Below, piece after piece: positions 24,259 through 29,354 of a DNA stretch of 61,925 nt; position 1 is the stretch's first letter; the number at the start of each line of letters is the position of its first letter. The stretch is from Halothiobacillus sp. (GTDB lineage Bacteria > Pseudomonadota > Gammaproteobacteria > Halothiobacillales > Halothiobacillaceae), in the NCBI GenBank assembly GCA_016278265.1, contig JADQCE010000006.1, positions 1-61,925 on the forward strand, in the 5' to 3' direction. The position numbers were made by a program, and so were the translations under genes. The notes beneath the pieces were generated by a model. The model was not told where the DNA came from and made no database searches. It saw only the letters and a program-made list of their open reading frames with translations.

Positions 24259-25047
24259 ATGAAGCGTTCCATCTGGCAGTTGCCGCGGGCCAGGATGGCG
24301 GCGTTTTCCGTGTTCGCCCGCAATTTTCTCGTCTGGCGAAAGCTGATCGGACCGGCGATCGTGCTCAACTTCGGTGAGCCGGTCATCTATCTGCTGGGTC
24401 TGGGCATCGGTCTGGGGGCGCTGGTGGGGGACATCGGCGGCCTGCCCTATCTCGTCTTCCTCGCCTCGGGGATCGTGGCGTCCTCGGCGATGATCTCGGT
24501 CAGCTTCGAGGGCATGTACTCGGTCTACACGCGGATGGTGCCGCAGAAGACCTTCGACGCCATCATGGCTACGCCGCTGGATATCGACGACATCATCCTC
24601 GGCGAAACCATCTGGGCGGCCTTCAAGGGGCTGTTGAGCGCCGTGGCAATCCTGATCGTTGCCGCCCTGCTGGACGCGGTGCCCGGCGGCTGGATGGCGC
24701 TGTGGGCGCTGCCGGTGGTGTTCCTGCTGGGGCTGGCCTTTGCCGGGCCGGCCATCGTGATGACGGCGATCGCCGACAACTACGATTTCTTCAACTACTA
24801 CTTCGTGCTGGTGGTCACCCCGATGTTCATGCTCTCGGGGGTGTTCTTCCCCATCGAGACCCTGCCCGACTGGATGCAGACCGCCGTGCTGGTCCTGCCG
24901 CTGACACATGCCATCGAGGTCATCCGGCCCCTGATCGTCGGCGAGCCGGTCGAGCACCTGCTCGCCCACCTGGGCGTGCTGGTCGGCTTCGCCGTGGTCG
25001 CCTACTACCTCGCCGTGGCCCTGGTGCGGCGGCGGTTATGGAATTGA
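24259..25047 (+). CDS. ABC-2 type permease, NodJ-like
   Basis: A 262-residue membrane protein with about six predicted transmembrane segments (for example IVLNFGEPVIYLLGLGIG). FEGMYSVYTRM and the conserved MLSGVFFPIETLP motif mark the NodJ/DrrB branch of ABC-2 permeases. ATG 24259 has GAGG upstream; GTG 24253 is an alternative. It forms an exporter with the ATPase upstream. Confidence 0.9.
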   Translation: MKRSIWQLPRARMAAFSVFARNFLVWRKLIGPAIVLNFGEPVIYLLGLGIGLGALVGDIGGLPYLVFLASGIVASSAMISVSFEGMYSVYTRMVPQKTFDAIMATPLDIDDIILGETIWAAFKGLLSAVAILIVAALLDAVPGGWMALWALPVVFLLGLAFAGPAIVMTAIADNYDFFNYYFVLVVTPMFMLSGVFFPIETLPDWMQTAVLVLPLTHAIEVIRPLIVGEPVEHLLAHLGVLVGFAVVAYYLAVALVRRRLWN

Positions 25048-25079
25048 AGAAGGCCGAAAGCGAAGCATGTTGAAGCGGC

Positions 25080-25101
25080 GTAGGAGCGGCTTTAGCCGCG
25101 A
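25080..25101 (+). repeat. REP-like palindromic repeat
   Basis: The bases GTAGGAGCGGCTTTAGCCGC at 25080-25099 match the short palindromic REP sequence common in Pseudomonas, Xanthomonas and related genomes; GCGGCT pairs with AGCCGC around TT. It lies about 30 bases after the permease gene. Such elements are usually moved by RAYT transposases. No second copy or RAYT gene was seen in the window. Confidence 0.7.
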
Positions 25102-25157
25102 GCGTGCCGGGATGGCAAAGAGGTCGGGAAAAGAAATCAGGAGTCAGAGGGTGGCTT

Positions 25158-25184
25158 GATGCTGAAGGCGATGAATCCAGCATC
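25158..25184. terminator. Hairpin between convergent ABC permease and folM
   Basis: GATGCTG (25158-25164) pairs with CAGCATC (25178-25184). It lies between two converging genes and may be a weak bidirectional terminator; there is no T-run. Confidence 0.35.
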
Positions 25185-25197
25185 TCGCGCTGACAGC

Positions 25198-25932
25198 TCA
25201 GCTCTCCCAGCGTCGCCCGGTGTCGAGCCGGATCACGGCCTGATTGATCAACGGACAAGCCATCAGGTAGTCGATCGTCTGGCTGACCACGCCCGGGCCA
25301 GGCTCGAACGGCAGCAGGCGTCGCTTGAGCCGGTGGCGACGGTACTCGGCGTCGTCCTCCGGGTGGAACATCAGCAGGCCGGGGGCGATGGCGTTCACCC
25401 GCGTGTGCGGGGCGTAGCGCAGGGCCAGCGACCGGATCGAGTTCTCGATCGCCGCCTTGGAGGCGATGTAGTGGATGTGGTCGGCTTCGCCCTCGTCGAT
25501 GTGGGCGTCGGTGATGAATACCGCCTGCCGGTCGGCGTGGCCGTCATCCCGCTCGCGGGCGGGCAGGGCGCGTTGCAGGTGCTCGGTTAGCTCGATCGGG
25601 CTGGTCACGTGCACGGTATACATCGCCGTGGCCAGTTCGGGATTCGCGGCGACGTCCTCGTCGCGGTGCCAGATCGAGGCGTTATGCACGATCAGATCCA
25701 GGCGGTCCGTGTGGTCGGCGACCTGCTGGGCGAACGCCGCGAGCCGTTCCCGCTCGAGCAGGTCCAGTGGCAGGGCGATCACGCCCTGGTCGATGAGCGC
25801 GTGCAGGGCGTCGGTCTCGTGGCGATAGGTGCCGATGACTCGGTGGCCCGCGGCCAGCAGGTGTTCCGCGAGATGGGCGCCGACGCGGCGCGTCACCCCG
25901 GTGATCAGGACGGTCTGGGCGCGTGATGTCAT
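25198..25932 (-). CDS. folM: Dihydromonapterin reductase (FolM-like short-chain dehydrogenase)
   Basis: A 244-residue short-chain dehydrogenase/reductase of the pteridine reductase branch. The cofactor motif is TGVTRRVG (11-18), the TGxxxRxG form seen in FolM/PTR1, rather than TGxxxGxG. NAS follows the third strand, and the catalytic YxxxK is in HYIASKAA. FolM reduces dihydromonapterin to tetrahydromonapterin and can reduce dihydrofolate. It lies four bases after folE on the same strand; GTP cyclohydrolase I makes its pterin precursor. Confidence 0.88.
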   Translation of the reverse strand: MTSRAQTVLITGVTRRVGAHLAEHLLAAGHRVIGTYRHETDALHALIDQGVIALPLDLLERERLAAFAQQVADHTDRLDLIVHNASIWHRDEDVAANPELATAMYTVHVTSPIELTEHLQRALPARERDDGHADRQAVFITDAHIDEGEADHIHYIASKAAIENSIRSLALRYAPHTRVNAIAPGLLMFHPEDDAEYRRHRLKRRLLPFEPGPGVVSQTIDYLMACPLINQAVIRLDTGRRWES

Positions 25933-25936
25933 GACG

Positions 25937-26545
25937 TCACCGTGCCACCAGCTGGAGAAACTCGTTACGGGTGGCCGCGCTGTCCCGGAACTGCCCGGTC
26001 ATCCGCGAGGTGATGGTCTCGGATTCGACCTTCTGGACGCCGCGCATCGCCATGCACATGTGCGCGGCCCGCACCTGGACGGCGACGCCGACGGCCCCGG
26101 TCGCGGTCTCCACTGCCTCGGCGATCTGCTGGGTCATGTTCTCCTGGATCTGCAGGCGCCGTGCGTAAAGATCCACGATGCGGGCGAGCTTGGACAGACC
26201 CAGCACCTTGCCCTGCGGGATGTAGCCGATATCAACATGACCGATGATCGGCAGCATGTGATGTTCGCAGAGGCTGTAGAACTCGATGTTGCGCACCACC
26301 ACCATCTCGTCGTTGTCCGACTCGAACAGGGCGTTGCCGATGGCCGATCCCAGGCGCTGATTCAGTCCTTGGTTGAGATAGAGCAGGGCCTTGGCGACGC
26401 GCCTGGGCGTGTCGATCAGCCCCTCGCGGGCGGGGTCCTCGCCCAGTTCGGCCAGGATGGTCTTGACCGCACCGGCGATGGTCTCGATGCGCTGTTCGTC
26501 GGCGCCGACCGGTTCGGGAAAGTCGTCCTCGTGCAAGGCTGCCAT
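25937..26545 (-). CDS. folE: GTP cyclohydrolase I
   Basis: First enzyme of tetrahydrofolate and tetrahydropterin synthesis, converting GTP to dihydroneopterin triphosphate. The 202 residues contain the zinc-binding [26 protein letters not shown], and the second Zn cysteine in HMCMAMRG. The pairing with folM suggests a tetrahydromonapterin branch. Upstream lies a structured inverted-repeat element shared with the divergent argS gene. Confidence 0.96.
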
Positions 26546-26622
26546 GTCGGTGGTTTCTCTCAGTAAAGGCTCAAAACGTCGGCAGGAACTTTAGCAGGTG
26601 CCCGCCGGCATGTCCGAGTGCC

Positions 26623-26633
26623 GCGGTTGGTTG
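26623..26633 (+). repeat. Left direct repeat flanking the inverted-repeat element
   Basis: GCGGTTGGTTG occurs here and again at 26908-26918, on either side of the 274-bp inverted-repeat element. This is the pattern expected for a target-site duplication of 10-11 bases. Confidence 0.75.
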
Positions 26634-26634
26634 C

Positions 26635-26908
26635 CCAGGGAAACCCTGCCCGATTCGATGGCATCTCTGGCTCGCGGGTTTGTCCGCAACCAAGGCGCCG
26701 GACCGAAGGCGGGCTCATTGCCCGTCAAGGGACGGCAACGCCGAGTGCGGGCAAACCCGCGAGCCCCGTGTGGGCGGGCCTCCAAGGGCCCATCTGCTGC
26801 GTTGCAGTCCTTGTAAAGGGCGACGGCCCTTCATGGCGGACTGGGCCTTGCACCTGGGCCCTTGGAGGTCCCGCAGAGACGTCATCGAATCGGGCAGGGT
26901 TCCCCTGG
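26635..26908. mobile_element. MITE-like palindromic element (274 bp), family unknown
   Basis: Terminal inverted repeats of 35 bp (26635-26669 and 26874-26908) match at 32 of 35 positions. They enclose two further inverted repeats: arm A 26669-26687 with 26747-26765 (18 of 19), and arm B 26774-26792 with 26855-26874 (19 pairs with one bulge). Only eight bases separate the arms, so one strand could fold as a three-way junction. Smaller hairpins sit inside arm A (26710-26724) and arm B (26816-26831). Flanking direct repeats suggest transposition. No credible protein is encoded. It fills most of the gene-free 26546-27009 region between folE and argS. Terminal repeats are read directly; mobility is inferred. 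Confidence 0.75.
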
Positions 26909-26918
26909 CGGTTGGTTG
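26908..26918 (+). repeat. Right direct repeat flanking the inverted-repeat element
   Basis: The second copy of GCGGTTGGTTG (compare 26623-26633). Its TTGGTT also supplies a plausible -35 hexamer for the argS promoter, so the insertion site lies within a promoter region. Confidence 0.75.
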
Positions 26919-26940
26919 GGCCAGCGCTTGCCGCTAAACT
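26912..26940 (+). promoter_or_regulatory. Promoter upstream of argS
   Basis: TTGGTT (26912-26917) and TAAACT (26935-26940) are spaced by 17 bases, 70 bases before the chosen argS start. The -35 falls in the right direct repeat of the inverted-repeat element. Confidence 0.55.
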
Positions 26941-27009
26941 GTCGCGTTCTTTCCCGGCGCCGATGCCGGCGCCCATGTCATGTTTCCAGCGCAAGGGGTT
27001 ATCCCGTCC

Positions 27010-28773
27010 GTGAAGGCCGTAATCGAACAACGTCTCCAGGCCATCTGCCAGCAATTGGTCGCCGAGGGCGACCTGCCCGCCGATGTGTCGGTCAAACCGG
27101 TGCTGACGGTGCCGAAAGACCCGGCCCACGGGGATTTCGCCAGCAACCTGGCGATGCAACTGGCCAAGCCGATGAAATGCCCGCCGCGGACGATCGCCGA
27201 GCGCATCGTCGAGGCCTTCGCCGACGAGAAGGGGGTCGAGCGTGTCGAGATCGCCGGTCCGGGTTTCATGAACTTCTTTGTCGAGGCGGGCGCCGCCTTC
27301 GCCCTGATCGACCGCATCCTGGATGAGCGTGAGCGCTTCGGTTGCTCGAATGCCGCCGGTGGTCAGCGCGTGCAGGTGGAGTTCGTCTCGGCCAACCCCA
27401 CTGGCCCGCTGCACGTCGGTCACGGCCGTGGCGCGGCCTACGGCTCGGTCGTGGCGAGCCTGCTCGAGGCGGTCGGTGCCGACGTCCAGCGCGAGTACTA
27501 CGTCAACGATGCCGGCCGCCAGATGCACATCCTCGCGATCAGTGTCTGGCTGCGTTACCTCGAGGGGCAGGGCGAGAGCATCGTGTTTCCCTCCAACGGT
27601 TACCGCTCGGAGGGCTATATCCTCGACATCGCGGCGGCGCTGGCGGACGAGCACGGTCGTCGACTGGTGGTGGGCTCGGACAAGGTGTTCGCCGACCTGC
27701 CGGAGGACGCGCCGGACGGCGACAAGGAGCGTCACATCGATGCGCTGGTCCGGCGCATGCGCGAGCTGCTCGGCGAGACCGACTACCAGCTGGTGTTCCG
27801 CGCCGCGCTCGATTCGATCCTGTCGGATATCCGCGCCGACCTGGCGGAATTCGGTGTCACCTACGACAACTGGTACTCCGAACAGAGCCTGGCCGATCGC
27901 GGCCTGGTCGAGCGCGCCATCGAGCGGCTAAAGGCACAGGGTCATCTCTACGAGCGCGACGGCGCGCTGTGGTTTCGCTCCACCGACTTCGGCGACGACA
28001 AGGATCGCGTGGTGCGGCGCGACAACGGCCAGACCACCTACTTTGCCTCCGATATCGCCTATCACCTCGACAAGTTCGACCGCGGCTTCGACCAGGTGGT
28101 CGACATCTGGGGCGCCGATCACCACGGTTACGTGCCCCGCGTGCGCGCCGCGCTGACCGCGCTGGGCAAGCCCGCCGACCAGTTGACCGTCTCGCTGGTG
28201 CAGTTCGCGATCCTCTACCGGGGTGGCGAGCGGGTGCCGATGTCGACCCGTTCGGGCAGCTTCGTCACCCTGCGCGAACTGCGCCAGGAAGTGGGCGACG
28301 ATGCCGCGCGTTTCTTCTACGTGATGCGGGCGGCCAATCAACATCTCGATTTCGATCTCGATCTGGCCAAGAGTCAGAGCAACGAAAACCCGCTCTACTA
28401 CATCCAGTACGCCCACGCCCGAGTGGCCTCGGTGTTGCGCCAGTTGCCGTTGCGCGGCCTTTCCCATGAGCCGCAAGTTGGTCGCGAGGCCTACGCGCGA
28501 CTGACCGAGCCGCACGAGCAGGCCCTGTTCAAGCGCCTGTCGCAGTACCCAGCGCTGATCGAGCGGGCCGCCCTGGCGCACGAGCCGCACCAGGTGGTTC
28601 ACTACCTGCGTGATCTGGCCCAGGACTTCCACAGCTACTACAACGCGCACGCCTTCCTGCTGGGAGAGGACGCGCCGTTGCGTAACGCCCGGCTCAACCT
28701 GGTGCTGGCGACCCGGCAGGTGCTGGCCAACGGTCTGGCGCTGCTCGGCGTCAATGCCCCGGACGAGATGTAA
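27010..28773 (+). CDS. argS: Arginyl-tRNA synthetase
   Basis: Class I aminoacyl-tRNA synthetase charging tRNA-Arg. The 587-residue protein (from GTG 27010) has an N-terminal Add1 domain, the HIGH-type ATP site HVGH in [14 protein letters not shown], and, in place of a canonical [13 protein letters not shown], as in many bacterial ArgS. The C-terminal anticodon-binding helical domain includes YAHARV. GTG 27010 gives the usual [10 protein letters not shown] opening and has AAGGGG upstream; ATG 26980 is an alternative ten residues earlier. A SPOR-domain gene follows after eight bases, a common gammaproteobacterial pairing. Confidence 0.95.
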
Positions 28774-28781
28774 CCGTCACG

Positions 28782-29354
28782 ATGGCCAGCAAGGGGAACA
28801 AAAAGGTGAATCGACCTCGAGCTTCGGCAGGCAATCGCGGCGCCAAATGGGCATTGCTGATCGCATTGGTCCTGCTGGTCGGGATGGTGGTGCTGCTCGC
28901 GCGGCTGACGGCGGAGAACAACAGCCGGCCGACCGAGGCGCCGACCGCCCAGACCGATACCCGCAGCGTGGAGAAGCCACCGGAGAAGCAACCGGTTTCG
29001 CCCGAATTCCAGTTCTACACCCTGTTGCCCAAGCAGGGGAATCAGCCGCCTCGCCCCGCCATGCAAGAGGAGGGGGTCGCGGACGAGCCGTCTGCCGAGC
29101 GGTCTGACGTCAAATCGGATGTGCGTTACGTGCTCCAGGCCGGCTCGTTCAGCAAGGCACGCGATGCCGAGGCGCGCAAGGCCGAGCTGGCCCTGCTCGG
29201 GGTCGAAAGTCACATCAATGCAGTCGACGTGAGCGGGCGACGCTACCACCGCGTGATTCTCGGCCCCCTGCCCGGCAAGGGAATCGCGGCACTGCGCCGG
29301 CAGCTCGATCAAGCCGGCATCCAGACGACCGAGCCTCGTCGTAGCGACGGCTGA
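28782..29354 (+). CDS. SPOR-domain, FtsN-like inner-membrane protein
   Basis: A 190-residue bitopic membrane protein. It has a short basic cytoplasmic tail, one transmembrane helix (about 23-42), a Pro/Glu/Gln-rich periplasmic linker (43-110) and a C-terminal SPOR domain (about 112-185) starting YVLQAGSFSKARDAEA and ending with YHRVILGPLPG. SPOR domains bind denuded peptidoglycan at the septum. The position directly after argS and the layout match FtsN of gammaproteobacteria, though FtsN proper usually has a longer linker. Confidence 0.88.
   Translation: MASKGNKKVNRPRASAGNRGAKWALLIALVLLVGMVVLLARLTAENNSRPTEAPTAQTDTRSVEKPPEKQPVSPEFQFYTLLPKQGNQPPRPAMQEEGVADEPSAERSDVKSDVRYVLQAGSFSKARDAEARKAELALLGVESHINAVDVSGRRYHRVILGPLPGKGIAALRRQLDQAGIQTTEPRRSDG

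Follow-up and report, generated by a model that had tools for sequence, protein, structure and literature searches.

The window analysed here, a stretch of 61,925 nucleotides from Halothiobacillus sp., contains a non-coding segment rich in inverted repeats between the genes for GTP cyclohydrolase I (folE, minus strand) and arginyl-tRNA synthetase (argS, plus strand), and raises the question of whether this segment is a mobile element and what its predicted fold would do for it. A sequence-only reading had named these two neighbours correctly and had proposed a MITE-like element bounded by terminal inverted repeats and by an 11-bp direct repeat. The repeats themselves were found as it had described them: the 35-nt terminal repeats at 26635-26669 and 26874-26908 are complementary at 32/35 positions (91%), two internal inverted repeats occupy 26669-26688/26746-26765 and 26776-26797/26850-26871, and the 11-bp unit GCGGTTGGTTG is present on both sides (Table 1).

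A 266-bp non-coding element between folE and argS

Comparison with other copies placed the mobile unit at 26639-26904, and the 35-nt repeats turned out to include the target-site tetramers (CCAG and CTGG) as their outer 4 nt. Mechanical reading frames overlap the element, while a codon-usage gene finder called none inside it and predicted only folE and argS at the locus, both of them outside the 266 bp. With dispersed copies, an empty site in relatives and a two-armed fold, described below, the proposal of a non-coding, MITE-like mobile element is borne out, and by the features tested the element is a MITE, except for the missing partner transposase.

Table 1. Coordinates of the element, its parts and its immediate surroundings in the window
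Feature	Position	Strand	Remarks
Mobile element	26639..26904	+	266 bp, no gene; terminal stem and two hairpin arms; ends from copy alignment
Left terminal inverted repeat GGAAACCCTGCCCGATTCGATGGCATCTCTG	26639..26669	+	family consensus GGAAACTCTGCACGATTCGATGGCATCTCTG
Right terminal inverted repeat	26874..26904	-	repeat comparison and family consensus
Arm A	26669..26765	+	97-nt hairpin; motif CAAGGCGC / GCAACGC
Arm A model match	26669..26765		model R2, E 3.5e-21 (training sequence of R2)
Inter-arm linker	26766..26773	+	superfamily mostly CCC-N3/4-GGG; may form a tiny third hairpin
Arm B	26774..26874	+	101-nt hairpin, inverted homologue of arm A; GCGTTGC / GGCCTTGC motif in window copy
Arm B model match	26774..26874		model R1, E 4e-23 (training sequence of R1)
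Left target tetramer CCAG	26635..26638	+	family-wide 4-bp duplication
Right target tetramer CTGG	26905..26908	+	family-wide 4-bp duplication
Left copy of GCGGTTGGTTG	26623..26633	+	local 11-bp repeat, outside element
Right copy of GCGGTTGGTTG	26908..26918	+	contains candidate argS -35 TTGGTT (26912-26917)
Candidate argS -10 TAAACT	26935..26940	+	same context in 7/9 relatives

Empty sites in relatives and a 4-bp target duplication

Two flanks of ~600 bp were used as separate queries, and a locus had to align to both to be counted. The folE-argS site was without the 266-bp insert in 11/11 relatives with both flanks aligned, 8 from the same genus and 3 from the same family; the argS locus of G007 (L090) aligned to not both flanks and was excluded from these 11. 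The empty-site alleles that the sequence-only reading had asked for in relatives are present.

The same reading had taken the 11-bp direct repeat for a target-site duplication, and this part of it was not upheld. Flanks that are identical right up to the edge of the element occurred in 3, 18, 1 and 0 of 54 paired-end copies at lengths of 3, 4, 5 and 11, respectively. The 18/54 copies with identical flanking tetramers compare with 5.1 on average, and never more than 13, across 10,000 shuffled pairings. The target-site duplication is 4 bp and of the YTAR type, the duplicated tetramers being CTAG, TTAG, CTTG, TTAA, TTTA, CTAA and similar; the two tetramers of the window copy are no longer identical. 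A true 11-bp duplication would agree with the empty site of G001 and G002, where a single copy of GCGGTTGGTTGGG gives one GCGGTTGGTTG against the two that flank the element in the window. However, no copy among the 54 has identical 11-bp repeats ending at the element, the 11-bp copies in the window are separated from the ends of the element by 5 and 3 bp, and G006 and G009, which are element-free at this site, carry related 11-bp units in an array that finishes with GCGGTTGGTTG (read by eye), making such a duplication highly improbable. Because element-free relatives already carry one copy or tandem units, the 11-bp direct repeat is, judged from these sites, an older local feature and not part of the element. 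The folE-argS interval (also in L084 and L085) can be described as containing an 11-bp minisatellite-like repeat with a copy number that varies across the genus independently of the transposon.

The insertion lies next to a candidate argS promoter, whose TTGGTT, inside the right GCGGTTGGTTG copy, stands 17 nt upstream of TAAACT. Both hexamers recur in context in 7/9 relatives compared, with G010 (TTGGTC and TAGACT) and G007 (another upstream region) as the exceptions, and this recurrence fits a candidate argS promoter left intact just downstream of the insertion. A promoter consensus scan of the locus gave nothing above its threshold. As for the gene itself, the start codon of argS may be GTG 27010 instead of ATG 26980, given that relatives keep the sequence from the GTG on and keep the preceding stretch 26980-27010 less well (by eye).

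Copies within the genus and family

Other copies, sought in the own genome and in related genomes as the sequence-only reading had proposed, turned out to be many and dispersed. Matches to the element were obtained in 15/57 genomes searched (own included), which comprise 10/11 genomes of the genus (own included), 3 more of the family and 2 others with short matches. The own genome gave 39 match rows, and in 16 of these (window copy included) the match spans 240 or more of the 341 query bases. A 20-nt pattern of the terminal-repeat end detected 12 to 201 ends per genome across 10 genus genomes (70 in the own genome, up to 201 in G010), as compared with 0-1 per strand for the reversed pattern used as a control, and all 21 stretches detected with a 24-nt end pattern in the named collection came from Guyparkeria, Halothiobacillus or Halothiobacillaceae. 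When 19 own copies were placed relative to genes predicted by a crude gene finder, 13 were outside, 5 were mostly inside and 1 overlapped by 17%.

Copies of unusual length were also seen. Very short derivatives contain little beyond the two terminal repeats, such as L048 of 42 bp with TTAG on both sides and the facing ends 40-98 bp apart in G009, and longer copies of 282-339 bp occur in L010, L128, L139 and L140, with an internal duplication inside arm A in L010. An argS-related locus of G021 (L093, 1061-1331) has two weak facing arm-B model matches and is perhaps a decayed two-armed copy. No plasmid was matched by the window element, L184, L188 or a 51-nt core, and one plasmid was matched with L193 as query. 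No match was obtained in phage records searched with the window element, and nothing was found in two viral-contig pattern searches or in E. coli genomes searched with one core (L264).

Predicted fold and a two-hairpin core across Gammaproteobacteria

The strand had been predicted to fold as a stem with two long arms, and RNA folding with shuffled controls gave the same picture. The predicted folding energy was -208.9 kcal/mol, where shuffled sequences averaged -138.2 (z -11.4), with z -11.8 for the opposite strand and z -11.6 with DNA parameters, and no shuffle reached the observed energies for either strand or for DNA parameters. Comparison of strands among the Guyparkeria-type folds gave a weak difference, the plus strand being stabler in 32/45. 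Because the arm-B model R1 also matches the arm A stretch on the opposite strand (26666-26767, minus strand, E 2.5e-4), arms A and B are, by model comparison, inverted homologues; in L172, both arms are matched by the arm-B model (E 1.6e-15 and 2e-13).

The arm-B model matched 92/369 sampled gammaproteobacterial genomes, in 72/271 genera, at E <= 0.001, where a per-genome value of 11 means at least 11 matches. R1 was trained on arm B, and superfamily loci were picked for likeness to arm B with arm A unused in the choice. As a control, 41 loci fetched for other reasons gave 2 weak matches at E up to 0.1, both in L093. We then compared 76 loci (56 of 60 newly fetched ones and 20 earlier ones, with L171 and L235 being one place). 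Recognisable terminal repeats placed as for two arms, with a total of 249-283 bp, were found in 60 of the 76, a call that rests on end positions and is model-checked in both arms for a subset. Four had ends placed as for one arm, and the remaining 12 were without a terminal repeat, 7 of them being cut by contig ends. Azotobacter chroococcum plasmid pAcX50f provides a named example of an arm.

Following a CTAG- or YTAR-like tetramer, the ends fall into IS5-like classes (GGAAACACTGATT, GGGCACCTCTATTA) and further classes (TACTCCGTCAAGG, TGTACTGCGTCAC, TGTCCTGTCACACG, TGTCCCTTAACAG, TGGGCCAAGTGG and others), which are apparently unrelated to one another, and more than one class was found in a single genome (G377). 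Since the terminal stem's inner rim (TCWG / CWGA) and the CCC-N3-GGG linker recur in most cores compared, we infer that the elements form one lineage with changed outer ends and are not chance look-alikes. At the level of sequence and predicted fold, these comparisons show that elements with differing ends, from many gammaproteobacterial genera, have a two-hairpin core in common. The sequence-only reading knew of no named family with this layout, and indeed none was found in Rfam or in the open-licence literature searched, although a name may exist elsewhere. In Rfam, window positions 25000-29000 gave no match at E up to 1, and 17 other loci gave none at gathering score, with three weak microRNA-type matches that were all in L194.

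Covariation and polarity of the arms

The Guyparkeria-type family was analysed with a 45-row alignment (A1), which holds most of the 54 paired-end copies without short, one-armed and over-long ones, plus L019. Standard pairs made up 95.1% of pair cells, a percentage biased upward because the structures of both the 45-copy and the 35-core sets came from the sequences' own consensus. Both sides had changed in 52/111 pairs, as compared with 18.9 in shuffled controls and at most 25 with slid partners. On a tree of Guyparkeria-type copies there were 85 pair-keeping double changes (38 in the terminal stem, 21 in arm A and 26 in arm B) against 1-10 with slid partners, and one-sided breaks were commoner still (35 in the terminal stem, 45 in arm A and 88 in arm B). 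For the superfamily, all 35 cores were used, including six that a 29-core subset had left out, some of them poorly folding. Doubly changed pairs amounted to 68/78 against 54.4 shuffled and at most 52 slid, and doubly changed cells to 744 against 209.7 shuffled and at most 184 slid.

Inner motifs stay while outer stem sequences differ between most genomes: 35/35 cores keep AAC in arm A and GTT in arm B unchanged, and CAAGG is present in most. The arms are also polarised. In the 35 cores, G-U outnumbered A-C in arm A (87:18) and the reverse was seen in arm B (35:92), with a structure that allows G-U and not A-C and so favours the arm A result and works against the arm B result. With a mismatch-neutral aligner and the arms in CAAGG orientation, outer stems outside the Guyparkeria set gave 144:101 (p 0.007); of the genomes concerned, 19 were polarised one way, 4 the other way (including G041 with 5:15) and 4 were ties (p 0.0026). 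The Guyparkeria set gave 125:43 with this aligner. The terminal stem had no polarity (30:27). The effect is moderate, and the cells share ancestry. Given that neighbouring arms are opposite in polarity, a replication- or transcription-strand bias would be no explanation, and we infer from the G-U / A-C polarity that the form in which an arm is used is a folded single strand, either ssDNA or RNA.

Two pairs of copies occupy the same site under the stricter test (L010/L127 is not among them). L033 and L059 have 9 differences, 7 in paired columns, all one-sided breaks, and were considered as proof that resident copies only decay; this was rejected because L057 and L058, with 22 differences, have 12 one-sided changes (5 breaks) and 2 two-sided pair-keeping ones. 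Different-site pairs with 6-12 differences had a mean of 0.53 two-sided changes, with 53% at zero. Same-site and different-site pairs thus look alike, and the resident-copy data therefore do not discriminate.

An IS5-type link at the ends and the search for a transposase

The element ends read GGAA[AC/GG/CC]TCTGCACGA, and their 10-nt tip is also that of IS5-type elements of the same bacterial family. Two such relatives were recovered with the L115 transposase as query, itself identified as NF033581, IS5 family transposase (361.5 bits, E 3e-108). L146 (G019), an IS5-type element, has GGAAGGTCTGATCAAT at both ends with TTAA/TTAA flanks. The left end of L145 (G021) has CTAG followed by GGAACCTCTGATTGAATC, matching the MITE end GGAACCTCTGCACGAATC at 15/18 positions, while no right end of L145 was found in the stretch examined; G021 also contains the MITE. 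IS5 is described as duplicating YTAR (PMC10359306), and MITEPsy1, with the end GGAAGGTCTGAAAAAGCC, as duplicating CTAG or YTAA and transposing in vivo (PMC3189936). The element has two marks of an IS5 derivative, a 4-bp duplication of the YTAR type and ends like those of an IS5-family element.

By contrast, the autonomous transposase with matching ends that the sequence-only reading had suggested looking for was found neither in the own genome, nor in the genus, nor in the complete genome G009. PF05598 had no match in the own genome and matched 1/11 genus genomes (G003), where the match contains a stop, and the L115 protein had no match in 11/11 genus genomes. The single PF01609 match of the own genome (L051, G000:C10:37507-38220) was rejected as the partner, as its translation reads like an IS4-type transposase, with the N-terminal part in another frame, and it is without such ends. 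Only three plus-to-minus spans of 0.7-2.6 kb arise from the 89 ends of G009, and closely facing neighbouring ends are 40-338 bp apart. A Pfam scan of 10 of the 23 long frames listed for the three spans detected no transposase; the scanned frames gave domains of host type (a hydrolase, a CxxCxxCC protein and a threonyl-tRNA-synthetase-like gene) or no Pfam domain.

The complete 3.7-Mb genome G347 has 37 NF033581 match rows, and its insertion sequences L200 and L211 carry CAGGCTGCTGAAAAAC ends with TTAG or CTAG duplications; they were rejected as partners of the G347 MITE since the ends differ. For TACTCC-type ends no partner was detected, with pairs ~80-340 bp apart among the matches listed in 8 genomes (by eye), and no insertion sequence was linked to other end classes such as TACTCCGTCAAGG. 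The partner transposase may be lost, rare or of another kind, and many MITE families are without an autonomous partner.

How the element may move and why its arms may be kept

We consider it probable that the element is a MITE moved by the transposase of another element, most likely of the IS5 family, and that its arms aid the element. Such a transposase would cut at the terminal repeats, the element would insert into YTAR-like tetramers with duplication of 4 bp, and the arms would be kept since their folded single strands (ssDNA or RNA) help copying, moving or retention. At folE-argS, the insertion appears to leave the candidate argS promoter in place. That the same two arms are kept while the ends differ suggests that the folded core itself matters for the spread of the element.

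The covariation is open to a different account in which arm pairing is kept by mutation and not by selection, with template switching in imperfect palindromes copying one side of an arm to the opposite side and thereby altering both together. Several pairs could be altered by one template switch, the terminal stem too is rich in double changes, with 38 against 21 and 26 in the arms, and the same-site pair L057/L058 has its 2 two-sided changes. However, the invariant AAC and GTT are motifs other than simple pairs and persist in the arms, the opposite G-U:A-C polarities of the two arms are unpredicted by symmetric correction, and no correction is seen in L033/L059. We regard this account as rather unlikely.

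An origin as a host regulatory or structural RNA (a terminator, a promoter-region hairpin or an RNase III target), spread by duplication and kept by the host, might be read from the very stable fold, from the site upstream of two divergent genes and from the 13/19 own copies wholly outside predicted coding sequence by the crude gene finder. We judge it quite unlikely, as the position is unconserved, with the element absent from 11/11 relatives, there is no terminator-like site at the locus, and Rfam matched neither the window stretch nor, at gathering score, any of the 17 other loci. We rate lower still the idea that the element is a repeat of the REP/BIME or REPIN-like kind, which a Y1 (RAYT) transposase would move by working on single-stranded hairpins. 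The inverted order and strand polarity of its two hairpins do recall a REP doublet, and Y1_Tnp was matched in 78/92 core-positive against 163/277 core-negative genomes (p 4e-6, with genome size and mobile-element load uncontrolled). However, 14/92 core-positive genomes are without a Y1_Tnp (PF01797) match, the complete Guyparkeria-type G005 among them, by which a Y1/RAYT partner was rejected as a requirement, and the terminal repeats, with the 4-bp duplications, suggest a transposase of the DDE kind.

Going beyond the preferred reading of a MITE moved by a borrowed transposase, we offer tentatively the idea that the core could be the true replicator, a structured nucleic-acid parasite that would have spread across Gammaproteobacteria behind successive ends and transposases, in the way that SINE RNAs use the machinery of another element. 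The arms would then be folded strands of fixed polarity, each offering a protein an open CAAGG/GCAAC loop, and their inverted arrangement would ensure one correctly oriented arm on either strand, exposed or transcribed.

MITEs are usually viewed as products of internal deletion in a single insertion sequence, and their interior as of no importance. In the present group the interior is conserved and the ends are variable, in about a quarter of the sampled gammaproteobacterial genomes (92/369), and the new part is the widespread two-hairpin core, as predicted, behind changing ends. The group makes it possible to test directly if a folded module in a non-coding transposon can be functional and increase the transposon's mobility, and also how such elements change transposase partners. 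On the practical side, at least one assembly seems to break at these repeats (G222, in which many contigs begin ~120-230 bp from a superfamily terminal repeat), and one copy now sits next to the candidate promoter of argS, a core gene.

Comparison with known systems

REP, BIME and REPIN repeats have two palindromes in inverted order with strand polarity, as does the element. The element differs from them in its much longer arms (~100 nt), its terminal repeats and its 4-bp duplication, and in that a Y1 transposase is not required. IS5-family insertion sequences of the NF033581 type (L146, L115) share tips GGAA[GG/CC]TCTG with the element, and L146 also shares a YTAR-like 4-bp duplication; unlike the element they encode a transposase, and the next end bases differ (ATCAAT vs CACGAAT) in this comparison of ends.

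MITEPsy1 of Pseudomonas syringae pv. phaseolicola is described as non-coding like the element, with the tip GGAAGGTCTG at one end, a 4-nt CTAG or YTAA duplication, a supposed origin from an IS5-type element (ISPsy2) and demonstrated transposition (PMC3189936). As regards size and ends, it differs from the element in being 100 bp long with 18-bp ends (PMC3189936). The R0 and R2 intergenic repeats of Pseudomonas fluorescens are likewise short inverted-repeat elements whose ends match insertion sequences of the same genome, whereas they are described as simple stem-loops of 89 and 110 bp (PMC2718517). Classical MITEs, as reviewed, are short and non-coding, with terminal repeats, duplications and a stable predicted fold like the element, and are typically AT-rich whereas the element is GC-rich (PMC10969869). 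What sets the element apart from classical MITEs is its predicted two-hairpin core, common to different-ended elements in many genera.
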